A stretch of 27,684 bases of DNA from positions 1 to 27,684 of IMG/VR virus record IMGVR_UViG_3300031886_000030, one strand, 5' to 3'. Positions 636-25,286 of this stretch are shown in pieces. The position numbers and the translations under genes were made by a program. Numbering within the stretch: the stretch's first letter is position 1; each line of letters starts with the position of its first letter. This stretch comes from a virus. Below the pieces are notes generated by a model, which saw only the letters and a list, made by a program, of their open reading frames with translations, did no database searches and had not been told where the DNA came from.

Positions 636-989
636 ATGAACGAAATAGAAAGATTACAACAACTAGCAGGTATAGTTAACGAAGAAGATGTTACTAAGGT
701 TGCAGTTGGCCATGTTGATGATGAGCCTGGAATGATTTCAAAAGAACTGTATCACATTGGCAAAAATGCTGTTGACATTCATAAAATGCTAAAAGAGCTT
801 CCGGATTCAGACTTCCCTCATTGGTGGCAAGCAAAAATAATTAAAGCACATGAATACGTTAAAAGTGCAAAAGATTTTTTAGATGCAGAACTTAATGCAT
901 CTGATGAAGACGAGCAAGAAATAGCAGACTTAGATCGGGCTGGTGAACTAGAGCAACAACAGGACCAAGACCCATCAGGCGTAAGTTAA
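636..989 (+). CDS. Small conserved phage protein with 'PHWWQAKI' helix
   Basis: A 117-residue acidic protein. The N-terminus M-N-E-I-E-R-L-Q-Q-L-A-G-I is of a type often seen on small proteins of marine T4-like phages. The core (about residues 40-90) has D-I-H-K-M-L-K-E-L-P, then F-P-H-W-W-Q-A-K-I, then A-H-E-Y-V-K-S-A-K-D-F-L-D, predicted helices that recur in uncharacterised proteins of such phages. The C-terminal 25 residues are rich in D, E and Q and probably disordered. The start has a late box 5 nt upstream and no Shine-Dalgarno sequence. I recognise the protein type but know no function; a virion or late-assembly role is only suggested by the late promoter. Confidence 0.75.
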   Translation: MNEIERLQQLAGIVNEEDVTKVAVGHVDDEPGMISKELYHIGKNAVDIHKMLKELPDSDFPHWWQAKIIKAHEYVKSAKDFLDAELNASDEDEQEIADLDRAGELEQQQDQDPSGVS

Positions 990-1008: not shown

Positions 1009-1785
1009 ATGCATTCCTTTTTTACATTCTATGTTCCGTGGAGCAATTTATCAGGTGCTTATGTTCCTGAAATATACGAGCAATACAATTCAGAATATAT
1101 AGAATTATCTAAACAAAAACATAAAGAACTATCAAATATGTTTGGTAGTGATTATCAATTTGTAGATGATTTACACTACTGTAAAGGTTTATTTAAAAAA
1201 TATAATATGCCTATGCTCGGGCATAACGATATTTTTAATATAAAGTTTATGTTATTTGAAGAGTATTTTAAAAAATATGATAAACTAACTTATATAGACT
1301 TTGATGTTATACATAAAGGAACATGTTCATTAACAGAAAAAGAAGACTTTTTAGAACCGAGTTGTGCAATACATTGGACTCAACCATTGCCAGGATATGG
1401 AATATTTCAAAGGACAAAAAAGTTGTGTGATTTGTTCAAACTTGATCCTAATAGAATGATATGGCAAAATAATAATGGTGTTATAACAATTAGTAAACAA
1501 ATGTGGGCAGAACTTAATTACTTAGAAACTATAAAAGAAGTATATGCAAAAAGTCAACACCAATTTGCAAAAGAAATATGCGATGAAACTATGTTTAACT
1601 TTATTACAATGTATAAAGACATAGATGTAACGAGATATAGTCCTACGTTTAATACTTTAGTTAGAAGAAGAGAAGAGTTTGATATACATACCGGGAATGA
1701 ATTTAGAATGTTTCACTTTACAAAGCATACAGGCAAAGAAATTTTAAACGAAGAACTAAGAAATCCAACTAGTATTCTTTACTAG
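1009..1785 (+). CDS. Glycosyltransferase-like protein (DxD, GT-A type)
   Basis: A 258-residue protein without signal peptide or membrane segment. Residues 94-100 read T-Y-I-D-F-D-V, a DxD motif (D97, D99) preceded by a hydrophobic strand, as in nucleotide-sugar-dependent GT-A enzymes, where the aspartates bind the metal and sugar-nucleotide diphosphate. A later N-N-G-V-I-T-I segment (about 154-160) and H-F-T-K-H-T-G near the C-terminus fit the acceptor half of GT8-like folds. Donor and acceptor cannot be read. The gene lies downstream of another glycosyltransferase-like gene and ends within a hairpin shared with the convergent GH6 gene (30-nt tail-to-tail overlap). Function is inferred from motif and fold pattern. 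Confidence 0.65.
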   Translation: MHSFFTFYVPWSNLSGAYVPEIYEQYNSEYIELSKQKHKELSNMFGSDYQFVDDLHYCKGLFKKYNMPMLGHNDIFNIKFMLFEEYFKKYDKLTYIDFDVIHKGTCSLTEKEDFLEPSCAIHWTQPLPGYGIFQRTKKLCDLFKLDPNRMIWQNNNGVITISKQMWAELNYLETIKEVYAKSQHQFAKEICDETMFNFITMYKDIDVTRYSPTFNTLVRRREEFDIHTGNEFRMFHFTKHTGKEILNEELRNPTSILY

Positions 1786-2613
1786 TTGTTCACCCATTTT
1801 ACCCCAAAACTTACCTGCCCTAGGGCCACCATTGGCTTTACCGTCTGACTCACCAGGTATTTTAATCCAAAGAAAAGCATCACACTTATCATCACCAGTA
1901 TCGCATGTTGGTGGTATACCTAATGCTCTGCCTGGAGGGTTACACCAGTCGTTACCGTGAGGACCATTGCCATTACGGCTAGTATCTATAACAAACTTCC
2001 ATTGATCATTATATTCACATACCTTTAAAGACCACTCTAAAGACTCCTTAGACGTTCTGTAGTTGCTTACATTGACTGCAAAGCCTCTTACCCTTTCGTT
2101 ACTAACAGAGTTTAAAAGATCGGCCGCTTCTTTAGGCGATAACCAATTACTATGTCCTATATCGATATAAACATGTGCTTCGCTTTCTGTTGTAAGTATG
2201 TTTAATGCTGACTGCATAAGTTCTATTCTAAACTTAGAATCTTCAAGTTCCATAAAAGTAGTATGAGGTAATGCATCGGGTTCATATATAATAATAGGAC
2301 TATGGCCCCTAATACCTTTTGCAAATGTTCGTATAAAGTCCATATAATCCAAACGATCAAAAGCACCACCTTTACTATGCTGTCCTATATCTCTATTTGG
2401 AATATTATACAATACAAAGTATGGTAGTTGGGGTTTTGTTCTATTTAAAAGTCGAATAAGACTTTTGTTTAGTTTTTTAAGTGTTTTCTTGCCTCGTTTA
2501 GCACCATACCAAAATGCGACTGGCTGTTCAAATATCCTACTTATGAGTGGGTATTTTATTTTGTGGTCTTTGACTCTATCAAAATCATTAACCCAAAATG
2601 GGTAGTTAAGCAT
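1756..2613 (-). CDS. Glycoside hydrolase family 6 (cellulase/cellobiohydrolase family)
   Basis: A 285-residue protein covering a complete GH6 catalytic domain. GH6 enzymes hydrolyse beta-1,4-glucans by inversion. Motifs in order: Y-N-I-P-N-R-D (69-75, D75 matching the conserved RD aspartate); I-I-Y-E-P-D-A-L (108-115, D113 matching the proton-donor aspartate of fungal Cel6A); Y-I-D-I-G-H-S-N-W-L (149-158); V-R-G-F-A-V-N-V-S-N-Y (175-185); I-D-T-S-R-N-G-N-G-P (209-218); D-W-C-N-P-P-G-R (222-229); W-I-K-I-P-G-E-S-D-G (249-258, D257 matching the third conserved acid). There is no signal peptide or carbohydrate-binding module, so it would act after lysis, on the virion or in the cytoplasm. It overlaps the deformylase gene by 8 nt, last in a four-gene unit. 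Family assignment is firm; substrate is unknown. Confidence 0.93.
   Translation of the reverse strand: MLNYPFWVNDFDRVKDHKIKYPLISRIFEQPVAFWYGAKRGKKTLKKLNKSLIRLLNRTKPQLPYFVLYNIPNRDIGQHSKGGAFDRLDYMDFIRTFAKGIRGHSPIIIYEPDALPHTTFMELEDSKFRIELMQSALNILTTESEAHVYIDIGHSNWLSPKEAADLLNSVSNERVRGFAVNVSNYRTSKESLEWSLKVCEYNDQWKFVIDTSRNGNGPHGNDWCNPPGRALGIPPTCDTGDDKCDAFLWIKIPGESDGKANGGPRAGKFWGKMGEQLVKNTSWIS
1766..1788. terminator. Hairpin between convergent genes
   Basis: A perfect 9-bp stem CAACTAGTA / TACTAGTTG with loop TTCTT covers the last codons of both the plus-strand glycosyltransferase-like gene and the minus-strand GH6 gene. Neither side has a long T-tract, so it may be a weak bidirectional terminator or an RNA-end stabiliser rather than a canonical intrinsic terminator. 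Confidence 0.5.
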
Positions 2614-3136
2614 CTTGTTTTCTTCTTGCAGACTGCCATTTTTTAATAAACTTATCTCGTTTCTTAATTGCTCGTTTTAGTTTTTCATCACTGGCATGTT
2701 CTAAATATAGTTTACCATTAATGTGATCAAACTCGTGCTGAAAACATCTAGCATCTCTACCTTCTAACCAATCCTCAACAACTTCTTGGTTACTTGTTTG
2801 AAACTTTACTTTTATTTTTTCTGGTCTTGTTAAAATAAAATATAGTGCAGGGAATGTAAGACACCCTTCTTCCATTGGAACTGTTTCGTCACTATATTCT
2901 AGTATTTCGGGGTTAAACACACCTACATCATGTCCACTTTCAAAATTCATTACAAATAGATTAAGACTTTGTCCTATTTGAGGTGCGGCCAAACCTATGC
3001 CTATTCTATCGTGCATAAGTTTAAATAGTTCTTGTTCTCTGGCCTCCCAATCCTCTTTCAAGTCAAAAGGATTAATGTCTGCTTTAGTATGTAGAGCAGG
3101 ATGTTTAGGTTCAACTAGTTCGCATTTCCAATTCAT
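2606..3136 (-). CDS. def: Peptide deformylase
   Basis: A 176-residue enzyme that removes the formyl group from the N-terminal methionine of new proteins. All three family motifs are present: G-I-G-L-A-A-P-Q-I-G (46-55), E-E-G-C-L (89-93) and Q-H-E-F-D-H (133-138). Metal ligands are C92, H134 and H138, with E135 as catalytic base. The C-terminus is a lysine-rich helix. Deformylase is a known auxiliary gene of marine phages; the short phage form is thought to support phage or host protein turnover. The start overlaps the stop of the upstream metallopeptidase gene (ATGA, 4 nt), and the end overlaps the GH6 start, so translation is probably coupled. Confidence 0.95.
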   Translation of the reverse strand: MNWKCELVEPKHPALHTKADINPFDLKEDWEAREQELFKLMHDRIGIGLAAPQIGQSLNLFVMNFESGHDVGVFNPEILEYSDETVPMEEGCLTFPALYFILTRPEKIKVKFQTSNQEVVEDWLEGRDARCFQHEFDHINGKLYLEHASDEKLKRAIKKRDKFIKKWQSARRKQDA

Positions 3137-3558
3137 AAGTCTAATTCTTTTCTAAAATAAGTCTTATATAACCACTTTTCAGTTCCATAAGCCTCCATTT
3201 CCCATGGAAGTTTTTTATATGCATAATCCGAATAATCTTCTTTATACCATTTAAACATTCTACCTGAGAGTTCGCCACTTAAAAACTGTTTTGCATGGAC
3301 TAGTTCATGGCATAAACATTGTAGCAGTTCTGTATAGGTATATTTGTAGTCGTATGATGTTCTGGCTAATTCAATATCAACCTCATCTTTGTCGCCCACA
3401 CAAAGTCCTGCACATTCGTCATCACACTTTTTAAATAACCAAATATCTACATATTTTACTTTTCTTGTTAACGGTAAATAATCATTCAATATTTCTTCTG
3501 AAATATCTATAACTTTTTGTTTGTTCTTAAGCCTACCGTATATGTCTACAATAATCAT
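3133..3558 (-). CDS. HExxH zinc metallopeptidase-like protein
   Basis: A 141-residue protein with C-H-E-L-V-H-A-K-Q at 83-91, a zincin HExxH motif (H84, E85, H88). L-P-W-E-M-E-A-Y-G at 117-125 offers E120 or E122 as third zinc ligand. Such compact SprT/gluzincin-like proteins with a 'PWExEAYG' tail motif occur in marine phages; their targets are unknown. Cysteines at 45, 49 and 53 form a C-x3-C-x3-C spacing that may bind another metal or simply be incidental. The start overlaps the upstream stop by one base (TAATG), and the stop overlaps the deformylase start, so the genes form one translationally coupled unit. Confidence 0.75.
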   Translation of the reverse strand: MIIVDIYGRLKNKQKVIDISEEILNDYLPLTRKVKYVDIWLFKKCDDECAGLCVGDKDEVDIELARTSYDYKYTYTELLQCLCHELVHAKQFLSGELSGRMFKWYKEDYSDYAYKKLPWEMEAYGTEKWLYKTYFRKELDL

Positions 3559-3937: not shown

Positions 3938-4012
3938 TGGCAGACGAGTAAGGATTCGAACCTCAATCGCAAGGTTTTGGAGACCTGCATGTTACCATTA
4001 CACCACTCGCCT
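3938..4012 (-). tRNA. tRNA-Trp (CCA anticodon)
   Basis: The minus strand folds into a 75-nt cloverleaf: acceptor AGGCGAG/CTCGTCT (one G-U pair), discriminator G, and an encoded CCA end. The anticodon loop is CTCCAAA with anticodon CCA (Trp) and U33 in place. The T-arm is TGAGG-TTCGAAT-CCTTA. The anticodon stem has a mismatch at its top pair (C27-T43). It lies between dexA and the 3893 gene. One UGG codon exists for Trp, so supplementation rather than codon switching would be its role. Confidence 0.92.
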
Positions 4013-4115
4013 AAAATTGAGAGTATGCAGTCCACTTAAGGAATTTACTGGCTTGTTGCCAACCTAATTTACGAAAGACCATTCGAGCATACTCTCTTTT
4101 ATCTTGGTAGCACAC
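4011..4115 (-). CDS. Possible small ORF between dexA and tRNA-Trp
   Basis: An open frame of 34 residues begins with GTG at 4115 (or 23 residues from the ATG at 4082) and ends with TAG two bases inside the tRNA-Trp gene. The sequence M-V-F-R-K-L-G-W-Q-Q-A-S, then K-F-L-K-W-T-A-Y-S-Q-F, is basic and amphipathic and looks protein-like. The GTG form overlaps the end of dexA by 17 nt. Both arms of the 10-bp inverted repeat at 4019-4096 lie within it, and the only Shine-Dalgarno-like sequence for the ATG (AGAGAG) is inside the stem. It may be a real small gene, a gene remnant or chance. Confidence 0.3.
   Translation of the reverse strand: MCYQDKREYARMVFRKLGWQQASKFLKWTAYSQF
4019..4096 (-). repeat. 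10-bp inverted repeat closing a 58-nt loop, next to tRNA-Trp
   Basis: GAGAGTATGC (4019-4028) is perfectly complementary to GCATACTCTC (4087-4096). On the minus-strand RNA the closing stem comes just after the dexA stop and is followed by AATTTT and directly by the tRNA-Trp 5' end. Inside, GGTC can extend the stem against GACT, and TGGC-AACAA-GCCA can form a small hairpin. It may be a structured RNA, a dexA terminator or an RNase processing signal for the tRNA. Confidence 0.4.
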
Positions 4116-4638
4116 TAAAGTCTTTAAAAAACTTTTGCACACAAATTGCTTGCCACCTAGAATCTTCAAGTGCATTATGCAAGTTCTGTTGTAATCCTTT
4201 GCGAGGATCTTGAGGCATCATTTTAAATAATGTTCTACAATCACTAACTTGCCAATAGAACCAATTTTTATGATAATTAAAAGAATCAAAAAAGTCTTCT
4301 AATATAACCATGTCAAACTGTGGTCCTTGACACCATATACTGTCGCAACCAGTTAGCCAAGCATTAAGTTCTTTCATAAACGAAGTTACATTAGTTCGCC
4401 CTGTTTCGCCAAATGCTTCTTCCTGTATTTCAGGATCTTGCTTTGACCACCAGGCTAATGTATCCTCATTAACTTCACGATCTATCTCAGTTTGAGCATC
4501 CACATCTATTTTCCAATGCTTACCATTAAATGGTTTATTGCTTGTAAATGGGTCAAACTTAATTACGCCTACAGACAGTATGACTGCATTAGGCTTTGTG
4601 CCTAATGTCTCAATATCTATCATTGCGTGAGTTGCCAT
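4099..4638 (-). CDS. dexA: DEDDh 3'-5' exonuclease, DexA / Rv2179c-like
   Basis: A 179-residue nuclease with the three exonuclease motifs: M-I-D-I-E-T-L-G (D8, E10), W-C-Q-G-P-Q-F-D (D109) and H-N-A-L-E-D-S (H154, D159), giving the full DEDDh set of two-metal-ion 3'-5' exonucleases. Length and motif spacing fit the Rv2179c-like domain that includes T4 exonuclease A (DexA). T4 DexA is a DNA exonuclease, while the mycobacterial relative acts on RNA, so the substrate is uncertain. The start has a good Shine-Dalgarno sequence (TGGAG, 8 nt upstream) and a consensus sigma70 promoter 24 nt upstream, so it should be expressed early by unmodified host RNA polymerase. Confidence 0.88.
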   Translation of the reverse strand: MATHAMIDIETLGTKPNAVILSVGVIKFDPFTSNKPFNGKHWKIDVDAQTEIDREVNEDTLAWWSKQDPEIQEEAFGETGRTNVTSFMKELNAWLTGCDSIWCQGPQFDMVILEDFFDSFNYHKNWFYWQVSDCRTLFKMMPQDPRKGLQQNLHNALEDSRWQAICVQKFFKDFSVLPR

Positions 4639-4661: not shown

Positions 4662-4689
4662 ATTATAGCAGGATTTTGTGGTTTGTCAA
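4662..4689 (-). promoter_or_regulatory. Consensus sigma70 promoter of dexA with palindrome over the -35
   Basis: On the minus strand TTGACA (4689-4684) and TATAAT (4667-4662) are perfect -35 and -10 hexamers with a 16-nt spacer. The -35 lies in the inverted repeat GTGGTT-GACA-AACCAC (4678-4693), which could be a repressor operator. The leader to the ATG is about 20 nt and carries TGGAG. Confidence 0.85.
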
Positions 4690-5567: not shown

Positions 5568-6530
5568 TTATGCGTCCGGTTTACGTTTGTGTCTATTTTC
5601 ACCTGTAAATAGTTTTCTAATGTTTCCTCTAAATGTGTAGTGGCCTACATGATTAAGAGCAGTTCTAGGATCTAACCAAACTTCTCCTCCCATTTCTTGC
5701 CAACGCCTACAGAATGTATAATCTTCTGACAAGTAACGCCGGGAGTCAGGATCAATTATACAATCAAATAATGAATACATATAAGGTTCAAACTTCATGT
5801 CAACATTAATATCATTAACATATTTTAAATCAGTATGCTTTTCGAACATTTGTTGTATAACTTCTTTTTGAATACACATAAAACCTGTGCCAGCATCTTT
5901 TAGTTTTACTAAATTATCACTAACATGAACTTGTGGTGTTTGGCCACCATCAGTATCTTTTAAGAAATCAAAGTTTACAACATAGTTTGAACTATGCCCT
6001 TCAATAGTATCTGCTGTTTCTTTTAATTCTCCATTTCTTGCCGCACCTAATATACTAGTCCAGTTAATTGCTTTCTTAGGATATGCTCCTACTACAATTG
6101 GTTTATCATATGCAACCATTCTCAAAACATCTTCTGGATTAAATTCAATATCAGCATCAATAAAAAACATGTGTGTTGCTGACTTGTTTTCCATAAAGAA
6201 ACTTGTTAATGTATTTCTGCCTCTTGTAATAAGGCTTTCATTTGCAAGTGTGCTAACTGTATATTGTATCTCATATTTATTACATAAGATTGCTAACCTC
6301 ATCATACTTCTAAAATATGGTTCGCCAATTTGTCCTCCAAAACAAGGAGTTGCTATAAAAATATGTTTGTTTCTAAGTGTAGATAAAGGTATCTCTATTT
6401 TAGCATCGAGTAAGTTAAATAAAGCATCTGTATTCTGCCCTTCAACTTTAGATGTATTAGGATTATTCTTAACTGGTTTTTGTGCTGTGGTCTTCTTTTT
6501 GGAAGCCGCGGCTTTTTTACGTTTTGCCAT
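5568..6530 (-). CDS. Glycosyltransferase-like protein with lysine-rich N-terminal tail
   Basis: A 320-residue protein. Residues 1-28 are a K/A/T-rich, probably disordered tail, and a GT-A-like core starts at K-H-I-F-I-A-T-P-C-F-G-G (55-66). M-F-F-I-D-A-D-I-E-F at 121-130 is the DxD motif (D125, D127), followed by P-I-V-V-G-A-Y-P-K-K (144-153), a combination typical of uncharacterised GT2-like proteins in marine phages. S-E-D-Y-T-F-C-R-R-W near residue 270 matches the conserved E-D region of the GT2 acceptor half. A good Shine-Dalgarno sequence (AAGGA) precedes the ATG. The gene overlaps the upstream oxygenase gene by 14 nt and is followed by the next glycosyltransferase after one base. Confidence 0.8.
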   Translation of the reverse strand: MAKRKKAAASKKKTTAQKPVKNNPNTSKVEGQNTDALFNLLDAKIEIPLSTLRNKHIFIATPCFGGQIGEPYFRSMMRLAILCNKYEIQYTVSTLANESLITRGRNTLTSFFMENKSATHMFFIDADIEFNPEDVLRMVAYDKPIVVGAYPKKAINWTSILGAARNGELKETADTIEGHSSNYVVNFDFLKDTDGGQTPQVHVSDNLVKLKDAGTGFMCIQKEVIQQMFEKHTDLKYVNDINVDMKFEPYMYSLFDCIIDPDSRRYLSEDYTFCRRWQEMGGEVWLDPRTALNHVGHYTFRGNIRKLFTGENRHKRKPDA

Positions 6531-8487: not shown

Positions 8488-9294
8488 CTATTTAGGTAAC
8501 TGTTCTCCGTTGTCATCCATGTTATGTAAAAAATCATGATACTGGCCCATTGAATGATCGGTAAACCCATCTATTAAATTAAATGACTTTGCCGCTTCCC
8601 ATGTTCCTCTCCATTTATCTTTAAATCTTTGGAACCATGTTGCCTTCCTAATGTTACCATATGAATTAATGTATCTTAATATTCCACTGTGTTTGAAAAT
8701 TACACCGAAACTTGGCGGAACTATTGTAACAGTATCGTTATTATTTCTATACCTATAATAAGGAAAGGTTATATTCTTAAGAAAGTCTGCATTGCCAACT
8801 CTCGGTTGGCCAAATGTATGTAAGCCGCCATTTGGTTGTAACTCAACTGCAACTAAAACTGCCATTGCTCCACCTAATGAATGCCCTGTTACCCATATTG
8901 TTTTCTTACCGGACTTGTTATGTTTCTTTATTGCTTCTTTAATGCCTGGTATAACTTTTTTATACTCTGCATAAAAACCTCTATGAACTCTGCCACTTTT
9001 GTGATGGTTAATTGGCCATGTCTTTAAATCGGCAACAATATCATTTAGTTGCGTAGGTTCTGTTCCCCTACATGCAACAATAACATCATTAGCATCACTT
9101 AAAATATATGCTTGGGCACCGTCAACATCAATGTATGTTGGCGGCAAAGGTTTGTTTAAAAATTTTTTAATTGGGTCAAGGTTTCTAATTCCTTTTCGTG
9201 CTTTAAGTAAATTTTTTGGATCGCAATAACATTGATGGGCGATCATACTAATGAGAATACCGCGTTGGCGGTAAGACATTTCTCTTACTGACAT
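8488..9294 (-). CDS. Class 3 lipase (alpha/beta hydrolase)
   Basis: A 268-residue protein of the Lipase_3 type. Conserved blocks are V-A-C-R-G-T-E-P (73-80), G-R-V-H-R-G-F-Y (101-108), the nucleophile elbow T-G-H-S-L-G-G (136-142, S139), H-T-F-G-Q-P-R-V-G-N (159-168) and R-N-N-N-D-T-V-T-I-V-P-P (183-194, D187). The triad histidine is probably H247 (T-D-H-S-M) or H253. It has no signal peptide or membrane segment. The family hydrolyses acyl esters of glycerolipids, so membrane-lipid attack during lysis or entry is plausible but unproven. Start choice is supported by AAGGAG 7 nt upstream and a late box about 60 nt upstream. Confidence 0.92.
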   Translation of the reverse strand: MSVREMSYRQRGILISMIAHQCYCDPKNLLKARKGIRNLDPIKKFLNKPLPPTYIDVDGAQAYILSDANDVIVACRGTEPTQLNDIVADLKTWPINHHKSGRVHRGFYAEYKKVIPGIKEAIKKHNKSGKKTIWVTGHSLGGAMAVLVAVELQPNGGLHTFGQPRVGNADFLKNITFPYYRYRNNNDTVTIVPPSFGVIFKHSGILRYINSYGNIRKATWFQRFKDKWRGTWEAAKSFNLIDGFTDHSMGQYHDFLHNMDDNGEQLPK

Positions 9295-10614: not shown

Positions 10615-10622
10615 TATTTATT
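10615..10622 (-). promoter_or_regulatory. Late promoter box 5 nt before ATG
   Basis: AATAAATA, then CTATT, then ATG at 10609 on the minus strand. It drives the small basic gene and probably the two oxygenase genes after it. Confidence 0.6.
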
Positions 10623-10658
10623 ATACATAGATTAAAGAAAATGTCAAATCTTGTTTAA

Positions 10659-16260: not shown

Positions 16261-17361
16261 TTATAAACTGAAACCTTTAAATGTATCTTTTTCTACATCT
16301 ATTTTGGTTCCGCCTATAACATATGAACTAATCTCTGTTTCTTGAGGAGCAGGCTGGACACTACCGCCTGCAATCCATTGCTGGGTCCAAGGTAGGGGAT
16401 TTGTTCCTGTATTAAATATCTTTTCTTGGCCCACGGACTGCATTCTTTTACCTGCAATGTATTCTACATACTGTTTTAATAACTCTGCATTAAGTCCAAT
16501 AATACTTCCATCTTTAAACAAATAATCACTCCAGATTTTTTCCTGATTAACAGCCTCGAGAAACATTTCGGTGCATTGCTTATATGTTTCTTTTCTTATT
16601 TTTTCGTAATCCTTATCTTCTTGGGGAAGTAGTTTTAACATTTGTTGTGTGCTTGCTAAATGAATATTTTCGTCTCTACAAATAAACTTAATAATTTTTG
16701 CATTGCCTTCCATTTTTTTAAGTTCTGCAAATGCCCAAGCACATGCGAATGATACATAAAATCGGACACCTTCTAATATGTTTACACTCATTAAGCATAA
16801 CCAAATTCTTTTTTTATGCTCGTATTCATTATATTTTTTACTAGTTTTTTGTCTAAGAGCATTATACTCAATTAAATCGTCATATGTTTTTGTAATAGTG
16901 TCTGAACAGTCTATAATTTCTTGTATGTCTAGCATTTCATCAAATACTTTACTTGGGTTTGCATATACATTTCTAATAATATGTGAATAACTTCTACTAT
17001 GAATTAATTCTGAGAATGCCCATGTTTCAATCCATGCTTCAACCTCTGGCAGACTTACTATAGGCAAGAAAGCAAGATTAGGTGAACGGCCTTGCACACT
17101 ATCAAGTAATATTTGTCTTTTTAAATTACTTGTAAAGATATGTTGTTCAGCGGCAGTTAAGTTTTTAAAATCTGTTGCATCTTTTAAAATATCAATTTCT
17201 TCTGGGCGCCAAAAGAATCCTAATTGCTTGTCTGTAAGTTTTTCAAATTGCTTATATTTTACAATATCGTATCGTTGCATTCCTAGACCACCATTTGTGT
17301 CTAAGAACATATTCATCTTAGTATGATCATGTCTATTTTTTACATCTAATACACTTTTCAT
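16261..17361 (-). CDS. nrdB: Ribonucleotide reductase class Ia, beta subunit
   Basis: A 366-residue radical-generating subunit that, with NrdA, makes deoxynucleotides for phage DNA synthesis. Diiron ligands are D87, E118, H121, E197, E231 and H234, and the radical tyrosine is Y125 in S-E-L-I-H-S-R-S-Y (117-125); spacings match E. coli NrdB. The C-terminus (K-D-T-F-K-G-F-S-L) is the acidic/hydrophobic tail that docks on NrdA. The start overlaps the nrdA stop by one base (TAATG), so expression is coupled and driven from the nrdA promoter. Confidence 0.97.
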   Translation of the reverse strand: MKSVLDVKNRHDHTKMNMFLDTNGGLGMQRYDIVKYKQFEKLTDKQLGFFWRPEEIDILKDATDFKNLTAAEQHIFTSNLKRQILLDSVQGRSPNLAFLPIVSLPEVEAWIETWAFSELIHSRSYSHIIRNVYANPSKVFDEMLDIQEIIDCSDTITKTYDDLIEYNALRQKTSKKYNEYEHKKRIWLCLMSVNILEGVRFYVSFACAWAFAELKKMEGNAKIIKFICRDENIHLASTQQMLKLLPQEDKDYEKIRKETYKQCTEMFLEAVNQEKIWSDYLFKDGSIIGLNAELLKQYVEYIAGKRMQSVGQEKIFNTGTNPLPWTQQWIAGGSVQPAPQETEISSYVIGGTKIDVEKDTFKGFSL

Positions 17362-19688
17362 TATATTTTACAACTTTCGCAATCTTCTTCATCATCTAAC
17401 GGATCTAGAGTTACATTTGATGACTCGATAAAATTAGCCTCTACATTTTTTCTCTGGGTAAATTCTGCCTTATTAATATCTATTTCGCCTTGGCCATCGT
17501 AAGTGTTATTGTAGTATAATTGCTTACCGCCATATTTATAAAAATTGATTATATCACCTAACAATACACTTAGAGGAACTTTTTCTTCTGGATAGTGTTC
17601 CGGGTTGTAAGATGTATTTACTGAAATGCCTTGATCAACATATTTTTGTAGAACTGCTACAATTTTTAAGTAACCTTCTGGTGATTTTTGTTCCCAAAGT
17701 AAATCATATTTATTTTTATAATATGGGAAACCCGGCACTACTTGTTTTAATACACCATGCTTACTTTGTTTAATACTAACAAAACTACGTGGCGGCTCAA
17801 TGCCGTTTGTGCTATTACTAATTTGTGCAGATGTTTCTGCTGGCATTAGTGCCATTAGTGTTGAATTTCTAATTCCAGTTTCTGCTAACTGTTTTCTTAA
17901 TCCTTTCCAATCCATGCGTTCTTTATGTTTAACTAATTCGTCAACATCTTCTTTGTATGTTTGATTAGGCGTAATACCTTTACTATATTTTGTCTCATTT
18001 GTTTTAGGACATGCACCTTTTTCTATAGCCAAATTTGCACTTGCTTTAATCAAACTATAACTCCATATTTCTGCCCACTCATCTATAAGTTCTAAGTTAG
18101 GATTTTGGTATGTAGTATCGTGCTTTGCTAACCAATACGCAAAATTTATTATTCCAATACCTAATGGTCTTCGATTCATTGTGGATTGTTCTGCGGCCAT
18201 TACTGGATATGATTGATAGTCTAGTAGTTCGTCTAGGGCTCTTACTGCTAAATCACACACTTTTTCCATTTCTTGTGTATCTTTAATTACGCCCCAGTTA
18301 ATTGCACTTAAGGTGCATAAAGAAATTTCTGCATCTAAATCGTCAATAGATTTAAGTGGTTTTGTTGGTAAATTAATTTCACAACATAAATTACTTTGTC
18401 TAATTGGTGCTATGTCTTCTTGGAATGCTCCATGTGTGTTTGCATGATCAACATTCATTAAATAAATTCTTCCTGTATCCTTACGTTCTTGCATGAACGA
18501 AGAAAACAGTTCTATTGCTGAAATAGTCTTTTTTCGAATGCTTGTCATACGTTCTGCTTTTTCGTATAACTCTTGAAATTTTTCTTGATTATCGAAGAAA
18601 GCATTATATAGTCCAGGAACATCATTAGGACTAAACAATGTAATATTCTCTCCAGCAATAAGTCGCTCATACATTAACTTATTAAATTGCACACCATAAT
18701 CCATGTGTCTAACGCGATTATTTTCTGTTCCTTTATTGTTCTTTAATACAAGCAGATCTTCAACCTCTAAGTGCCATATAGGGTAATATAAAGTTGCGGC
18801 GCCGCCTCTTACTCCGCCTTGGGAGCAACTCTTAACTGCAGACTGAAATAATTTATAGAAGGGAATAACTCCAGTATGTGTTGCATCGCCATTTCTAATA
18901 GGAGAGCCTACTGATCTAATACTGCCTGCCCCTATACCTATTCCTGCTTTTTGACTTACATACCTTACAACTGCACTAGTTGTTGCATTAATGCTATCTA
19001 AACTATCGTCAGTTTCTATTAATACGCATGAACTAAACTGTCTTTGTGGTGTTCTGACACCTGCCATAACAGGCGTAGGTAAAGAAATCTTAAATGTGCT
19101 AATAGCATCATAATACATCTTTACATAATTCATTCTGCACTCTGCAGAATATTTACCAAACAATGTTGCCGCAATTAACATATACGCAACTTGTGGTGTT
19201 TCGTAAATTTCTCCTGTTGCTCTATTTTGAACTAGATACTTGCCTCGGAATTGTTCCATGGCGGCATAAGTTAATACTTCATCTCTTTCGTGTTTTAAAT
19301 GTGCATTAAGTTCGTCGATTTCATCTTTAGTGTATAGTTCTAGAATCTCAGAATCATAAAATCCTGCATCAATATTTTTTTGAATAATGTCGCATAAGCA
19401 TGGTGGTTCAAATTCTCCATAAACCATTTTACGCAAATGATAATTGATTAGCCTTCCGGCTACATATTGATAATTTGGATATTCTTCTGATATAAGGTCT
19501 GCCGCACTTTTAATAAGTGTTTCTTGTATATCTTCAGTTGCTATCGAATCAAAGAATTGTATTTGACTATTAATTTCTACTTGTGATGCACTGACTCCTG
19601 TGATTTCTTCGCAGGCATACATCACAACCTTGTGTAGTTTGTCTATGTTGAGATCTTCTAGTCGGCCGTCCCTTTTCTTAACTTGCAT
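17361..19688 (-). CDS. nrdA: Ribonucleotide reductase class Ia, alpha subunit
   Basis: A 775-residue catalytic subunit. An ATP-cone-type N-terminal domain (about 1-90, V-K-K-R-D-G-R) precedes the ten-stranded barrel. The redox pair is C221 (F-S-S-C-V-L) and C458 (S-L-C-T-L-S), the thiyl site is N433-L-C435-C-E437, and the C-terminal shuttle cysteines are C770 and C773 (C-E-S-C-K-I). Full length, with no intein or intron, unlike several T4-like phages with split or intron-bearing nrd genes. It is transcribed from a sigma70 promoter 53 nt upstream; a GGTAAATA late-type box also lies in the leader. Confidence 0.97.
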   Translation of the reverse strand: MQVKKRDGRLEDLNIDKLHKVVMYACEEITGVSASQVEINSQIQFFDSIATEDIQETLIKSAADLISEEYPNYQYVAGRLINYHLRKMVYGEFEPPCLCDIIQKNIDAGFYDSEILELYTKDEIDELNAHLKHERDEVLTYAAMEQFRGKYLVQNRATGEIYETPQVAYMLIAATLFGKYSAECRMNYVKMYYDAISTFKISLPTPVMAGVRTPQRQFSSCVLIETDDSLDSINATTSAVVRYVSQKAGIGIGAGSIRSVGSPIRNGDATHTGVIPFYKLFQSAVKSCSQGGVRGGAATLYYPIWHLEVEDLLVLKNNKGTENNRVRHMDYGVQFNKLMYERLIAGENITLFSPNDVPGLYNAFFDNQEKFQELYEKAERMTSIRKKTISAIELFSSFMQERKDTGRIYLMNVDHANTHGAFQEDIAPIRQSNLCCEINLPTKPLKSIDDLDAEISLCTLSAINWGVIKDTQEMEKVCDLAVRALDELLDYQSYPVMAAEQSTMNRRPLGIGIINFAYWLAKHDTTYQNPNLELIDEWAEIWSYSLIKASANLAIEKGACPKTNETKYSKGITPNQTYKEDVDELVKHKERMDWKGLRKQLAETGIRNSTLMALMPAETSAQISNSTNGIEPPRSFVSIKQSKHGVLKQVVPGFPYYKNKYDLLWEQKSPEGYLKIVAVLQKYVDQGISVNTSYNPEHYPEEKVPLSVLLGDIINFYKYGGKQLYYNNTYDGQGEIDINKAEFTQRKNVEANFIESSNVTLDPLDDEEDCESCKI

Positions 19689-19724
19689 GTGTGTATTTCC
19701 GTAATTTTTCTATGTTTCTAATTA

Positions 19725-19732
19725 TATTTACC
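19725..19732 (-). promoter_or_regulatory. Late-type box in the nrdA leader
   Basis: GGTAAATA on the minus strand, 36 nt upstream of the nrdA ATG and downstream of the sigma70 -10. It matches the box of the Sm-like gene and may allow late transcription too. Confidence 0.35.
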
Positions 19733-19740
19733 GAAGTTTT

Positions 19741-19769
19741 ATTATAATATAAAACTACTTAAAAGTCAA
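19741..19769 (-). promoter_or_regulatory. Sigma70 promoter of nrdAB
   Basis: TTGACT (19769-19764) and TATAAT (19746-19741) on the minus strand with a 17-nt spacer. The -35 overlaps the stop codon of the 20197 gene. Confidence 0.85.
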
Positions 19770-20197
19770 GAATAAATTTGCTTTAGTGGTAATTTATGGG
19801 TCTGAAATAGTGTTCCTTGCTTTAAGGCGGTATCCTTTAATACTACTTCACCAGGTGTGAAATTTAAAAAGAAGTCCTCATGTTCAAAAACTATTCCAGT
19901 ATTGCCGATTTCGTTATTACTTATCACTGGTAAAATTAGGTTTTCTTCTTTAATGAACCCCAATTGGTCTAAGGTAGCAATCATTAACAATGTTATGCCT
20001 GTTTGACAAAAATTACCGTCGTAAACAATAGTAAAAATGTTAGGCCAAGACTTAGGTGTGTAGTAGTCTAGATATCTATCTAATACTTTTATATGTGCAA
20101 ATTCGCTTACTACTTCTTTTATCGTAGATGGTTTTTGATTTCGAAAATCACGCCAAATTTTCAGTCGGTCCTCGGGACTATGATGTTTCTCGAACAT
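19766..20197 (-). CDS. Conserved hypothetical protein
   Basis: A 143-residue protein starting M-F-E-K-H-H-S-P-E-D-R-L-K-I-W-R. It has mixed helix and strand (W-P-N-I-F-T-I-V-Y-D-G, L-I-L-P-V-I) with F-E-H-E-D-F-F-L-N-F, and no signal or membrane segment. I do not recognise a function. It follows the large virion-type gene after 6 nt and has no Shine-Dalgarno sequence of its own, so it is probably co-translated with it and may be structural. Confidence 0.6.
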   Translation of the reverse strand: MFEKHHSPEDRLKIWRDFRNQKPSTIKEVVSEFAHIKVLDRYLDYYTPKSWPNIFTIVYDGNFCQTGITLLMIATLDQLGFIKEENLILPVISNNEIGNTGIVFEHEDFFLNFTPGEVVLKDTALKQGTLFQTHKLPLKQIYS

Positions 20198-20203
20198 TAG
20201 TTA

Positions 20204-22678
20204 TTATGTTGTTACTGTAGTTTGCCATCTTCGTAAAATATATCGCATTTGACAATCTGTAGAAGATGTTAAAGAGTTGTTAGCATTTAATGATATAATA
20301 TCTGTTCCGTCAGAAGCCATTGAAACTGTAAAATTGACGTTCCCTGTTATATTAGCATGATGATCACTATAAGTATCATTAATAAATACTTGCTTAGAAT
20401 CTGTATCTGCTCCTATCATTGTTGTTCCGATTCGTTTATATGTTTCGTTAACACTTGCTGATTTATCTTTCATACTATATTCAATTATGAAAGAATCATA
20501 TGTTGATGCATTCGCAGTCCAAATAACTGTATTACCATTTGCAACAGTAAGTCCTTCTGGTGATGAGAAACTTGTAATTGCTTCGCCTGACTCTGATGAG
20601 TCTTTTGTAAGTAATTCAATATTTGTTTTAATATTAAGTAGTCCCTTAATATCTGGATTAACACTATTAAAGTATAAGTTATTTGTGATTGTTGAAAAGT
20701 CTCTTGCTTCTTCTCTAGTATTAAAGTTTACTTCTTTAAGATCACTATCTATACTTAATGCCCATGATGTAAATGATACTGGTGATGATGCATATGGTTG
20801 TGCAACATATATGTTTTTAAAGTAATTAAAGTTAGTGTCTTGTAATGCGTTATATAACCATGTTTCTAGTTTTGATTTAACTGTTGAATCATCCTTAAGA
20901 TATGCACCAGCAGTAAGTCCTAAAGAACTAGCAGTTGATATACTGTCTTGGTGTATTCTAAATCCGTCCAAACTATTTGTTTTTTGATATGATTCTGAAA
21001 TTGTTAAATAAACTTTGTCGTCATCGTTTGGCACTAAATTTAGTTTCGGCCATGTATTAACATTATTAATTTTTGTAATTGCGCCGTTAAGTGTAGTTTC
21101 TGCGGATAAATTAACAGCAGTAACTGGTGTTGCAGATGTTGTTCCGTTTGCAACAACTGGAGTAATCGTTAATGCAGGGTCGCCTGATGCAACAGCATTA
21201 CCAGCAGTAACAACAAATGTATTTGCTGTAGCACTTGAAACTGTTTCTGAAGAACTATAGTCAGCATTTCCACCAAAATTTGCTACTTCAGTATTATTAA
21301 AACCATGATATGTTGAATGCACAACTGGTGTTGTATTTGTTCCGCTTTTATGGGTAACAAACTTAGAACTTGCTAAAGCATTAACTGTTGCAGTATTTGT
21401 TAAACTTCCTACTTCTATACCTGCTGTTCCACTAAGTGGAATGGCTGTAACTGTTCCTGAATCAACTGCTGTATTGCCTGTAGCATTAAGGAAAACTATA
21501 CCATCACCTACTTCAATGTTTTCTGCATTACTTACAGTCATTGATAAGTGAGTTGTATTAGTTAGTGTATCATACGATGTTACTGATCTTGCAATAGAGG
21601 CTGTATTAGTTGGCAGGGTTGCATCGATAGTAGTTGCTCCAATAGCAGAAACCTTTAATACTTTACCATCACTCCAACCTGATAATCCACTTGTGTAAAC
21701 ATGATTTAGGTTTGCAGAATCATACTTACCAACATTAGTTGCACCAACAGTAATTGTTGCTGTAGAACCTGCAACTGTCATTGCTTTACTAGATTGTATA
21801 TCTAGTTCTCTACTTAAAAATAAGTTACCTAATGTTAATCCTGTTTTATTAGCATCTGCTGATGTTTTCTTAATGTCAGTCGAGACTGCAATATGCTTAA
21901 AGTCTAATCCAATGTAACCAATTCCTGTTGATTGCGTTACTCTTATGTTTTTATTATTGAGGTATCTGTAACTAGGTAATACTTGAGTTGTTAAGTTAGG
22001 CCATAACGTTGCATCATTATAAAAACTAGTTACACCAGTCACATAAGCACCAACGTCTGTATCTGGACTTGTTTTACTTAATGCACTTATTAGTGTTGCA
22101 TTTCCATAATAACTTGCACCTATTTGTTCTGTAGTTTGAGGTGCAGACCTAAATCCTAAATTGTGTGAACTTCCACTTGCGGTGCCATCTTGTATAAATG
22201 CATAATCTTTTGATGACGCAACACTTGATGCACTTGACGTTGCAGAATCAGGATCTAAAACAATACCGTCTTTTGCTACGATCATATCATCTGAATCAAA
22301 AACTAGTGCTGTATCTAAATGTCTAAATTCTGTATTACTTGTTTTAAATACCGAACTTCCTGTCCATGAAGTTGTTTTAGTAATTCCGTCCCAAGTTGCA
22401 TTGCCTTTAGCATAGAATTTATTTGGGACTTCAAATTTTATTATTTGAACGTTTGCTAAATTTTTAACAGTATTTTCTGCGTTATTAGTTTTTTCAAACT
22501 GAGCAATTTTATTAAAATCTGTATTAACTAGACTGGCTGTATCTGCACCAATAAATACTTGTCTACTATCCGTTGCGAAGCCAAGTTCTCCTGGACGTAA
22601 AGGTTTAGGAAGATCCTGTTTTAAACCTCTACGGTTTTGGATCCTCGAAATAATTACACTATTGTTGCTTGTGGCCAT
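20204..22678 (-). CDS. Large virion protein, probably tail fibre or baseplate-associated
   Basis: An 824-residue protein. Residues 10-44 (I-S-R-I-Q-N-R-R-G-L-K, then P-L-R-P-G-E-L-G-F-A-T-D-S-R-Q-V-F-I-G) match the common N-terminal motif of phage tail-fibre/appendage proteins ('IQIRRGTxxxxxxxxLxxGElGyxtDtxklyIG'). The remainder is S/T/A/G-rich, beta-strand-rich and low in Cys, as in fibre shafts. No enzymatic motif or obvious exact tandem repeat is seen. The gene has a late box and a good Shine-Dalgarno sequence (TAGGAG). It may be a receptor-binding or wedge-linked protein; which one cannot be said. Confidence 0.75.
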   Translation of the reverse strand: MATSNNSVIISRIQNRRGLKQDLPKPLRPGELGFATDSRQVFIGADTASLVNTDFNKIAQFEKTNNAENTVKNLANVQIIKFEVPNKFYAKGNATWDGITKTTSWTGSSVFKTSNTEFRHLDTALVFDSDDMIVAKDGIVLDPDSATSSASSVASSKDYAFIQDGTASGSSHNLGFRSAPQTTEQIGASYYGNATLISALSKTSPDTDVGAYVTGVTSFYNDATLWPNLTTQVLPSYRYLNNKNIRVTQSTGIGYIGLDFKHIAVSTDIKKTSADANKTGLTLGNLFLSRELDIQSSKAMTVAGSTATITVGATNVGKYDSANLNHVYTSGLSGWSDGKVLKVSAIGATTIDATLPTNTASIARSVTSYDTLTNTTHLSMTVSNAENIEVGDGIVFLNATGNTAVDSGTVTAIPLSGTAGIEVGSLTNTATVNALASSKFVTHKSGTNTTPVVHSTYHGFNNTEVANFGGNADYSSSETVSSATANTFVVTAGNAVASGDPALTITPVVANGTTSATPVTAVNLSAETTLNGAITKINNVNTWPKLNLVPNDDDKVYLTISESYQKTNSLDGFRIHQDSISTASSLGLTAGAYLKDDSTVKSKLETWLYNALQDTNFNYFKNIYVAQPYASSPVSFTSWALSIDSDLKEVNFNTREEARDFSTITNNLYFNSVNPDIKGLLNIKTNIELLTKDSSESGEAITSFSSPEGLTVANGNTVIWTANASTYDSFIIEYSMKDKSASVNETYKRIGTTMIGADTDSKQVFINDTYSDHHANITGNVNFTVSMASDGTDIISLNANNSLTSSTDCQMRYILRRWQTTVTT

Positions 22679-22702
22679 ACTAATCTATCTCCTAGTTAGT
22701 AG

Positions 22703-22710
22703 TATTTATC
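22703..22710 (-). promoter_or_regulatory. Late promoter box of the large virion gene
   Basis: GATAAATA on the minus strand, followed by CTACTAACTAGGAG and the ATG at 22678. It shares the 'TAAATACT' extension with the leaderless class but has a normal leader. Confidence 0.65.
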
Positions 22711-22721
22711 ACTTTCAGATA

Positions 22722-23390
22722 TTACAAGGAGTAGTAGTCTGCTAGGCGTCCTGACCATTTGTGACAGTATTCTTCAAATTCATTGCCTTCTATAACAAAG
22801 TCTTGAAATTTGCCTTCTCTGTCGACCATAAGAATTGCTACTTTTTTAATATCACTGCCAAACATTTCATTATGTGCTAATGCGTATGCACAGCCTTGCA
22901 TAAAGTAGTCATTAATCCATTCTCTTTTCTTAATCTTTTTCGAAGTTTTAAAATCTATAATTGATTCTTGTCCTTCATACATACCTATTGCATCAGATGT
23001 TCCTGCGTATAGTCCTTCTGCAAGTAATCCAACTTCTACACCATATATTTCATTTACTTTAGACAGACCTTTATCTATCATTTCCATAGTCATTGTTTTA
23101 GCAAGTTGGCTGACAACATTTGTTCCGAATGAATCCCAGTCTTCTTCTAGAATATATTTTTCTAGGCTGTTATGGACTTTTGTTCCAAGCCCTGCTGATT
23201 CGGTGCTTATACGATTTGCTTCTGCTTCTCCTACTCTTTTGCGCCATGCAATAAGAGCAGTTTTATCACTAGTGGCTGAAAGTATTGTAGTTACACTTGG
23301 CACTGGTTCTCCAGTTCCGTCTGTGTATTTTCTGCCTTCTTTAGTTTGTATTCTTTTTAAATTAGGATAATCGTATTTAGATTGAAGCAT
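22722..23390 (-). CDS. PD-(D/E)XK superfamily nuclease (RecB/Cas4-like)
   Basis: A 222-residue protein. Nuclease motifs are L-G-T-K-V-H (68-73, H73), E119 in G-V-E-V-G-L, T-S-D-A-I-G (131-136, D133), I-I-D-F-K-T-S (144-150, D146 and K148) and Q165-x3-Y169, the RecB-type QxxxY. This is the single-domain exonuclease type common in T4-like marine phages, probably for host DNA degradation or recombination. It has a perfect sigma70 promoter whose -10 lies only 5 nt before the ATG, with no Shine-Dalgarno sequence, so an early leaderless mRNA is predicted. No Fe-S cysteine cluster of Cas4 is present. Confidence 0.85.
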   Translation of the reverse strand: MLQSKYDYPNLKRIQTKEGRKYTDGTGEPVPSVTTILSATSDKTALIAWRKRVGEAEANRISTESAGLGTKVHNSLEKYILEEDWDSFGTNVVSQLAKTMTMEMIDKGLSKVNEIYGVEVGLLAEGLYAGTSDAIGMYEGQESIIDFKTSKKIKKREWINDYFMQGCAYALAHNEMFGSDIKKVAILMVDREGKFQDFVIEGNEFEEYCHKWSGRLADYYSL

Positions 23391-23395
23391 AAGGT

Positions 23396-23424
23396 ATTAT
23401 AGCACTATTTAGGTTATTTGTCAA
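23396..23424 (-). promoter_or_regulatory. Consensus sigma70 promoter of the nuclease gene, with late box in spacer
   Basis: TTGACA (23424-23419) and TATAAT (23401-23396) on the minus strand, with a 17-nt spacer that contains CCTAAATA. The -10 is followed by ACCTT and the ATG at 23390, so the start site falls on or next to the ATG. Confidence 0.88.
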
Positions 23425-23427
23425 CTA

Positions 23428-23745
23428 CTACCAACTAATATTCCACTGTAAAGTGGTATTACTACTTGGGTCTGTAACTATATTTACTCCATAACCTAAA
23501 TCTTTGAAGTATTTTTTGACGTAATCTAATTGATCTTTCTTGGTTGGATCGGTTGTTACCGCGTTGTGAACATAGTAATAAACATTACTATTTGTCATTG
23601 TAGAGTTATTAACATTAGCATATAAAACACCTGCATCAATATTAGCAAATACAGAATTTTCTATAGTATTAATTTCACCATGAATAACAGTATTATTTCT
23701 AGTATCTGTTCTTGCAGTTGTAGCATTTACAAATATTCCTGGCAT
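23428..23745 (-). CDS. Conserved phage protein, probably structural
   Basis: A 105-residue protein. The N-terminal half is strand-rich with N-T-V-I-H-G-E-I-N-T-I-E, I-D-A-G-V-L-Y-A-N-V; the C-terminus is Q-L-D-Y-V-K-K-Y-F-K-D-L-G-Y and T-L-Q-W-N-I-S-W. I recall this pattern ('VIHsEi..IE..il...dAG...a.v...MT ... YFtdlGYtI...tnp.t..tf.W.i.W') from small virion-associated proteins of marine phages; the function is unknown. The start follows the upstream stop by one base with a GGAG Shine-Dalgarno sequence. Confidence 0.65.
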   Translation of the reverse strand: MPGIFVNATTARTDTRNNTVIHGEINTIENSVFANIDAGVLYANVNNSTMTNSNVYYYVHNAVTTDPTKKDQLDYVKKYFKDLGYGVNIVTDPSSNTTLQWNISW

Positions 23746-23746
23746 C

Positions 23747-24088
23747 TTATAACTCCGCTTTTATATCTTTCATTGCTTGATTGCCTGCCATTTTGGCGAC
23801 ATCAACACTTGGTTCTTCTTCTGTATCTATGTCTGCTGGTAGCTCGCCTTTTGGTTTTATTACATTTTTATCAACACTACTTGCAAATTGTCCATCGTCA
23901 ACTGCTTGTATAAGATCTTCTATCTCAATTTCATAGCCTTGATCGGCAAGAATTCTTTGTAAGTCTTCTGTTTCAATTTCGTCTTTATCGGGATCGGCAC
24001 TTACCTTTGCAAGTTCATTTTGGACTGCTACGATTAAGTCTTCGTAGTATCCTTCTGTGACCTTTAAGATAACCTCCCTAATGAGCAT
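23747..24088 (-). CDS. Acidic hypothetical protein
   Basis: A 113-residue, strongly acidic protein (E-I-E-T-E-D-L, I-E-I-E-D-L, D-I-D-T-E-E-E-P-S-V-D). The N-terminus M-L-I-R-E-V-I-L-K-V-T-E-G resembles the small tag seen on marine-phage structural/core proteins. It lies in the same unit as two virion-type genes, with 1-nt gaps and a GAGGTG Shine-Dalgarno sequence. No function is assigned. Confidence 0.6.
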   Translation of the reverse strand: MLIREVILKVTEGYYEDLIVAVQNELAKVSADPDKDEIETEDLQRILADQGYEIEIEDLIQAVDDGQFASSVDKNVIKPKGELPADIDTEEEPSVDVAKMAGNQAMKDIKAEL

Positions 24089-24089
24089 T

Positions 24090-25286
24090 TTACACCTCTA
24101 CTGGTGCTCTGCCTAGTGGCTCATCTTCTGGGCCAGCCGCGGCTGGTTCGTTAATATCAATTTCTGGTTCTGGTAAAGGTTCTTCCATGCCCATATCACC
24201 TATACCCAATTCTGGCTCTTCCAGGTCGTTTGTTCCTAATGCACCTACACCTGTTACTGTTCCTATAAGTCCGTCCATTCCTTCTTTGCTTGCTTTAGCA
24301 TTTAACAATGCATCATCTAAAAGTTGCTCTGCCTGTCCTTTAAATCCTTGTGCTTTTTCTAACCCAAATTCACTAACCATTGAATCTGTAATAGCGGGAA
24401 TGTCTTCGTTTTTCATTCTACCTAGTCTTTCTACTTGATCTTGCAAGTCATCTGCAAGAGCACGAATTGCCATAACAACTTCTGCTTCATCAACGGATGT
24501 TCCTTCAATTTCTTCTGAAATCATTTCATCTATAATATCGTCAAACATACTTTCTTGAACCTCTTCTTCTGTGTTTTCTCTATTTTGTTCAGCAATTTTT
24601 CTACCAAACATCTGAATGCCACCTTCTACTGCATCTTCTTCTAAACTGTTTAAGAAACCAACAACTGCATCTCTGCTTTTGCCACTTACTTCTGCAAACA
24701 TATTTAATTTTTCTTCAATTGCATCGTAACTTGTTGTATCTTTAAGTTCAACACCAATCTCTTTAGCAAGTTCACTCAACAGTCTATCATTTAAGTCTGT
24801 TTGAGCTTCTTCTATTGCTTCGTGTTGGCTACTGCATGATTCCATATATTCTTTTGCCGCTTTGATAACAATAGGAAGAACATGTTCATCATCAAAAGCA
24901 AATCTATTATCCATTCTAAATCTATTCATGGATTCACCACAGGCTTCGTCCATAGTGTATCCTGAATCCATTAAGCCTTCCACACTAGCAACAAGCATTT
25001 CCTTCATCTCGTTATATTTTGGAGATTCAGCATAATAGCCTTCTGCTAACATTGTTTCTGAAATATCTTTAATACCTAAATACTTAACGTATTCTGGTTC
25101 TAAGTGAAATTGTTTGCTAGATCCTTTAAGTTGAATGATTCGCATTTCTGCAGAATCTTTAAGTTTTACTAACTTGTCCTTCTTTGGAAAAGTTTGTGCA
25201 AATGAAATATTAAATTCTTCACTTAATAATTTTTGAAGATTTTGAATTCTTTGCTGTCCGTTTTGATTGAAATCTTTAATAAACAT
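24090..25286 (-). CDS. Virion structural protein of marine T4-like type
   Basis: A 398-residue acidic, mainly helical protein. Residues about 268-345 (V-M-A-I-R-A-L-A-D-D-L-Q-D-Q-V-E-R-L-G, M-V-S-E-F-G-L-E-K-A-Q-G-F) match a region of cyanophage virion proteins with 'aLvD.LQdmvE.LgkM.ne.lP.l.D...ee.G'. The C-terminal 40 residues are rich in P, E and D (E-P-L-P-E-P-E-I-D). The central region is charged with coiled-coil character. It heads a three-gene unit; a late box and an AGGAAG Shine-Dalgarno sequence precede it. Exact position in the virion is unknown. Confidence 0.65.
   Translation of the reverse strand: MFIKDFNQNGQQRIQNLQKLLSEEFNISFAQTFPKKDKLVKLKDSAEMRIIQLKGSSKQFHLEPEYVKYLGIKDISETMLAEGYYAESPKYNEMKEMLVASVEGLMDSGYTMDEACGESMNRFRMDNRFAFDDEHVLPIVIKAAKEYMESCSSQHEAIEEAQTDLNDRLLSELAKEIGVELKDTTSYDAIEEKLNMFAEVSGKSRDAVVGFLNSLEEDAVEGGIQMFGRKIAEQNRENTEEEVQESMFDDIIDEMISEEIEGTSVDEAEVVMAIRALADDLQDQVERLGRMKNEDIPAITDSMVSEFGLEKAQGFKGQAEQLLDDALLNAKASKEGMDGLIGTVTGVGALGTNDLEEPELGIGDMGMEEPLPEPEIDINEPAAAGPEDEPLGRAPVEV

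Follow-up and report, generated by a model that had tools for sequence, protein, structure and literature searches.

A predicted GH6 endo-beta-1,4-glucanase without secretion features is a fixed gene of an aquatic jumbo-phage lineage

The window analyzed here is the entire IMG/VR record IMGVR_UViG_3300031886_000030, a phage genome fragment of 27,684 bases, and it carries on its minus strand a gene for a 285-residue protein of the cellulase family GH6 (Table 1). The GH6 gene is the last of a run that, starting from a promoter-like site, encodes an exoribonuclease, tRNA-Trp, a 111-residue ORF, a SprT-like peptidase, a peptide deformylase, and the GH6 protein. The ORF ends in this run overlap by 8, 4, and 1 nucleotides, so translational coupling is plausible. 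The initial annotation placed GH6 in a coupled unit with the deformylase and the HExxH peptidase; the genes and their overlaps are present at this locus, but the unit is not conserved across relatives, as the deformylase lies near GH6 in 59 of the 81 viral relatives and the SprT-like gene in only 19. A glycosyltransferase-like gene (phrog_14945) is found near GH6 in 40 of these relatives. The 117-residue protein encoded on the plus strand has a partial match to Flavobacterium phage immuto.

Table 1. Features of the window discussed in the text
Feature	Position	Strand	Remarks
117-aa protein	636..989	+	no assigned function; in the GH6 neighborhood in 66 of 81 relatives
GH6 catalytic domain, 285 aa	1756..2613	-	ATG start; four active-site aspartates intact; no signal peptide or binding module
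Inverted repeat	1766..1788		3' ends of GH6 and of a convergent 258-aa ORF meet here; terminator-like
Peptide deformylase	2606..3136	-	PF01327, E 4.7e-37; 8-nt overlap with GH6
SprT-like HExxH peptidase	3133..3558	-	PF10263, E 4.7e-5, slightly under the Pfam cut-off
Small ORF, 111 aa	3558..3893	-	same run as GH6; no assigned function
tRNA-Trp(CCA)	3938..4012	-	within the run that ends with GH6
Rv2179c-like 3'-5' exoribonuclease	4099..4638	-	first gene past the promoter-like site
Sigma-70-type promoter-like site	4662..4689	-	TTGACA-16-TATAAT, 12/12; TG ahead of second hexamer
phrog_1574 gene	5568..6530	-	conserved lineage marker for the prevalence test
NrdB, NrdA, tail-fiber-like and virion genes	16261..25286	-	collinear with PA5oct gp240-gp247

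The sigma-70-type site ahead of the exoribonuclease gene is likely the promoter of the run that ends with GH6. It is one of three perfect 12/12 matches in the window (the others at 10620-10647 and 23396-23424), all on the minus, coding strand, whereas shuffled windows average 0.12 such sites, and the phage thus seems, from these motifs, to rely on host-type promoters. Across the sister loci, strong promoter-like sites number 139 on the GH6 strand versus 27 on the other, a five-fold excess. The site upstream of the GH6 run could mean early expression, but promoter type does not settle the timing of GH6 because structural genes in the window also carry sigma-70-type sites. A search of the window for the T4 late promoter TATAAATA found four sites, which is chance level and therefore gives no evidence on timing.

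The GH6 protein matches the Pfam profile PF01341 over residues 23-262 (profile positions 17-299 of 305) with an E-value of 4.7e-53 and 181.4 bits against a cut-off of 27, which excludes a chance match, and the complete GH6 catalytic domain claimed by the initial annotation is borne out by this profile search, which the annotation itself had proposed. The Pfam search of the ORF revealed no domain besides GH6, and the best 10-residue segment within the first 40 residues has a mean Kyte-Doolittle value of only 0.8, in agreement with the earlier reading of a domain with neither signal peptide nor binding module. The closest solved proteins by sequence are Mycobacterium tuberculosis Cel6 (E 6e-50) and Thermobifida fusca Cel6A (E 1e-47), and the three aspartates first singled out as intact (D75, D113, and D257) do align with catalytic-site aspartates of both enzymes. 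A fourth conserved active-site aspartate, D151, can be added; we take D79, D117, D156, and D265 of T. fusca Cel6A to be the catalytic-site residues that correspond to D75, D113, D151, and D257, respectively. Wherever a viral copy spans these positions, all four aspartates are conserved, and nearly all of the 80 cellular copies compared have them too.

An AlphaFold model built from 53 relatives (mean pLDDT 91.4, pTM 0.92) was compared with solved structures using Foldseek, and the top matches were the GH6 endoglucanases 1UOZ, 1UP0, 6FAO, and 1TML, with TM scores of 0.87-0.88 (0.83-0.88 when both directions are considered). Each of the best 50 PDB fold matches listed is either a GH6 structure or a scaffold derived from such a structure. 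Cellobiohydrolases reach TM scores by target length of only about 0.50-0.65, with many gaps. Cellobiohydrolases of this family have a tunnel closed by long loops and a chain of about 360-430 residues, whereas the endoglucanases have an open cleft and about 285-300 residues. The active-site tunnel envisaged in the initial annotation is therefore not expected, as the 285-residue protein has endoglucanase length and appears to lack the extra loops of the cellobiohydrolases. By chain length and superposition, the model fits the open-cleft GH6 endoglucanase class, and from chain length and fold we infer an endo mode of action for the predicted enzyme. Thus, the gene apparently encodes a functional GH6 endo-beta-1,4-glucanase, as predicted from its sequence. 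Enzymes of this family hydrolyze beta-1,4-glucan with inversion, and the viral protein would be predicted to do likewise.

The viral protein resembles M. tuberculosis Cel6 (1UP0/1UOZ) and T. fusca Cel6A (1TML) in its whole-domain match, fold, four aspartates, and length, but it shares only about 33% identity with them, has no signal peptide, and has lost or rearranged the conserved cysteine pairs. These differences extend across the viral branch, as a comparison of secretion features in 81 viral and 80 cellular GH6 copies indicated. The median number of residues ahead of the domain is 2 in the main viral clade and 0 in a second viral clade versus 104.5 in the cellular copies, and a hydrophobic stretch precedes the domain in none of the 81 viral copies versus 68 of the 80 cellular ones. 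Cys76 is absent from all 81 viral copies and present in 78 of 80 cellular copies; Cys260 is found in 19 of 81 and 80 of 80, respectively. The two sites presumably belong to the two conserved disulfides of secreted GH6 enzymes, going by the pairing in T. fusca Cel6A. The viral branch displays neither the signal, lipoprotein, or N-terminal module nor the cysteine pairs that characterize secreted bacterial GH6. Because both the N-terminal signal or modules and the conserved cysteine pairs have been lost, the viral GH6 looks adapted to the cytoplasm, as would befit a protein folded under reducing conditions with no later export. C224 is kept in the main viral clade and C244 is new there (the position is not a cysteine in cellular GH6), and both are invariant, while the second clade has neither. 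The C224/C244 pair may represent a new disulfide, a metal site, or neither.

Judged by gene order and terminase similarity, the contig is a fragment of a jumbo phage akin to Pseudomonas phage PA5oct (Arenbergviridae). Genes of the window match PA5oct gp240-gp247 in the same order with 24-58% identity, where NrdA and NrdB correspond to gp241 and gp240, the tail-fiber-like protein to gp243, and the virion genes to gp247-gp244. The window itself lacks a terminase gene, but a terminase is present in 7 of 13 large GH6-bearing sister contigs (profile PF03237), and the one that was compared is 57% identical to the PA5oct terminase over 98% of its length. The collinear structural and ribonucleotide reductase block, together with this terminase, places the contig among the PA5oct-like jumbo phages. 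Sister contigs reach 339,794 and 216,820 bases, and the lineage is one of aquatic, mostly marine, jumbo phages with kinship to Arenbergviridae. The virus was at first described as T4-like, which holds in a broad sense only, since the terminase and the collinear block point to PA5oct and away from close T4 kinship. Strict T4 membership was considered and set aside. Profiles for gp23 and the phrog_2 terminase matched nothing, and PF03237 then recovered the PA5oct-type terminase; the gp23 major capsid profile PF07068 found no match in 17 contigs, all of them fragments, and matched no control genome either. GH6 was not detectable in PA5oct in a search of phage records. Ribosomal protein S21 is encoded in 14 of 25 large lineage contigs tested, with long extra tails (L182-L187, L268-L278), and its nearest relatives in phage records are in Pelagibacter phage HTVC008M and Methylophilales phages, followed by PA5oct; this kinship points only weakly to a proteobacterial host. 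The window also encodes a class 3 lipase (8488-9294) and a subtilisin-like protease (12090-13685), which with GH6 makes three degradative enzymes. Jumbo phages are frequent in the sea. The largest marine jumbo-phage cluster has been described as largely uncharacterized (PMC9123017).

The initial annotation did not regard GH6 as a standard phage gene, and this held up. No PHROG family matches the protein, BFVD contains no GH6 fold among its predicted structures of viral proteins, and matches in 50,697 phage records are limited to three records from two distinct phages, namely Streptomyces phage Gilgamesh (two of the records) and an unverified fecal contig. Within its own lineage, the gene is not an oddity. 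A scan of IMG/VR with the family alignment found at least 110 stretches that encode a relative, of which 80 of 110 were kept, and a scan with one member of a second viral group, which has 42-45% identity and different neighbors, yielded 25 loci. Prevalence was assessed on contigs that were gathered by the nearby phrog_1574 gene, and so not chosen on GH6, and that have 9.5 kb or more of sequence downstream of it. GH6 is present in all 41 qualifying contigs, in 33 inside the 9.5-kb stretch and in eight farther along the same contigs (L003, L039, L040, L050, L052, L064, L065, and L077). Some of the 41 contigs are near-copies, so the independent cases are fewer and the prevalence is local and contig-level; on these contigs, GH6 is a fixed gene of the lineage genome. 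Terminase-bearing contigs without GH6 do not indicate absence of the gene, given that 54-75 kb separate the two genes in contigs where both are present.

The GH6 phylogeny with viral contigs that the initial annotation had also proposed comprised 101 rows of viral and cellular GH6. The main viral clade (39 rows) has a support of 97, and a wider group with a support of 96 also takes in the second viral clade and a single Patescibacteria row on a long branch. Viral and cellular rows separate with a single change, although support is as low as 51 for the branch that sets all viral rows alone apart. Cellular sequences reach about 41% identity at best, and the GH6 domains of Gilgamesh and the fecal contig cluster with actinobacterial enzymes on another branch of the family. 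The median dN/dS over 57 close pairs is 0.071 (range 0.025-0.111), indicative of strong purifying selection, and the viral protein therefore does work. The Patescibacteria row beside the viral group (L131, a Pacebacteria MAG) has a very long branch and an unsure placement, and it is probably cellular because the genes around it are ordinary metabolic genes, a GH8-containing gene, and one for a family 2 glycosyltransferase. In that MAG (L131:106-5762), GH6 comes directly after the glycosyltransferase and GH8 genes, an arrangement that resembles a glucan-synthesis operon.

An obvious question is what a phage would do with such an enzyme. A separate T4-type GH24 lysozyme of 150-162 residues is encoded in four contigs of the lineage (G019, G020, G018, and G005), about 10 kb from GH6 in three contigs, so the phage need not depend on GH6 as its main lysin; the idea that it is the sole endolysin was dropped as the leading one once the lysozyme was found. 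No holin was identified, and the GH6 gene lies outside any lysis cassette. On balance, we lean toward the possibility that the lineage carries a fixed, predicted endo-beta-1,4-glucanase that is released by lysis and trims a beta-1,4-glucan of the host. Synthesis and folding would take place in the cytoplasm of the host, without the disulfides of secreted GH6, and the enzyme, having no export signal, would stay until the GH24 lysozyme opened the cell. A cytoplasmic glucanase that is never exported would meet its substrate after lysis, and release at that stage is what we infer. Once outside, GH6 may cut the host's own beta-1,4-glucan, be it cellulose itself or a sheath or matrix resembling it, which would free the large virions from debris and clear a path to neighboring cells. 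By analogy with known systems, a host glucan is the likeliest substrate, and the earlier suggestion that the host or its biofilm contains a beta-1,4-glucan to be cut by the phage or its lysate appears reasonable and is the leading interpretation. Erwinia phage S6, whose GH5 cellulase is verified, has host cellulose as its first receptor (PMC9544554), and Streptomyces CslZ, a GH6 enzyme, helps deposit a cellulose-like glycan (PMC9040799).

An alternative is that the enzyme is a depolymerase carried in or on the particle that cuts a surface glucan during adsorption or entry, as proposed for phage S6, and the GH6 gene of Gilgamesh does sit in a minor-tail gene region. We consider this unlikely, as the 81 viral copies have no structural domain fused to them, the ORF starts at the catalytic domain (a median of 2 residues upstream), and GH6 is not adjacent to the virion block in the window. 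GH6 might instead be an accessory cell-wall enzyme that cleaves the beta-1,4 bonds of peptidoglycan and aids lysis. T4-type lysozymes, too, are core enzymes that reside in the cytoplasm and have no signal, and CslZ degrades cellulose, chitin, and peptidoglycan, with its D120A variant losing activity on both peptidoglycan and CMC (PMC9040799). That the substrates of GH6 enzymes can include chitin, xylan, or peptidoglycan (PMC9040799) counts against the leading interpretation. Nevertheless, the lineage owns a GH24 lysozyme and the nearest folds are cellulose-active endoglucanases, which makes such a helper role in lysis unlikely, though conceivable.

It has also been proposed, for the viral GH6 of trench-sediment viruses, that the enzyme serves as an auxiliary metabolic gene (PMC8725595), which here would mean helping the infected host to degrade algal or plant cellulose for carbon and energy. 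Such a role seems very unlikely for the present lineage, since an enzyme without a secretion signal is not expected at extracellular cellulose while the host lives, and lineage-wide fixation and a separate viral group speak more for a core function of the virus than for a transient gene from the host. We give the least credence to an intracellular role in which GH6 works with phage glycosyltransferases, for example by trimming a glucan or glycan that decorates the host or virion. The adaptation of the protein to the cytoplasm and the glycosyltransferase-like neighbor in about half of the relatives would suit this role, but the gene order is not strictly kept and, to our knowledge, no cytoplasmic beta-1,4-glucan is known in the likely hosts.

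The viral GH6 differs in several respects from the phage and bacterial systems that it most resembles. Like the viral protein, CslZ, which is encoded beside the cellulose synthase genes cslA/glxA, has no binding module, and it acts on the bacterium's own cellulose-like glycan (PMC9040799), but it is a membrane lipoprotein of the host whereas the viral GH6 is soluble and signal-less. The S6 proteins gp094 and gp095 are likewise phage-encoded cellulases tied to host cellulose (PMC9544554), yet they belong to GH48 and GH5, not GH6, have extra domains, and come from an N4-like podovirus. Surveys of the Mariana Trench and the Aral Sea also reported GH6 in metagenomic viruses (PMC8725595, PMC9948696). 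There, the genes are sporadic auxiliary metabolic genes, host-derived in the trench study, whereas here they form their own viral group and are fixed in one lineage, a comparison made by description only. An enzyme counted elsewhere as a metabolic extra is thus a lineage-wide viral gene here.

A fixed, selected cellulase is a clue to the appearance of the hosts and a handle for finding them, and it suggests that they are wrapped in a cellulose-like sugar polymer. A bolder and rather doubtful extension is that this GH6 branch, almost confined to phages, is a core enzyme with a long viral history, rebuilt for the cytoplasm and directed by a widespread phage lineage against glucan-coated hosts, and that it betrays a large, unrecognized group of cellulose-making bacteria in the plankton. 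The viral protein also offers a soluble GH6 scaffold without the usual disulfides. In Gilgamesh, also a tailed phage, gp72 likewise has a GH6 domain, but this protein differs in its length of 444 residues, its N-terminal extension, its location in the tail gene region, and its separate actinobacterial branch; the gene (L180:3365-4699) was apparently acquired by a phage in a separate event.
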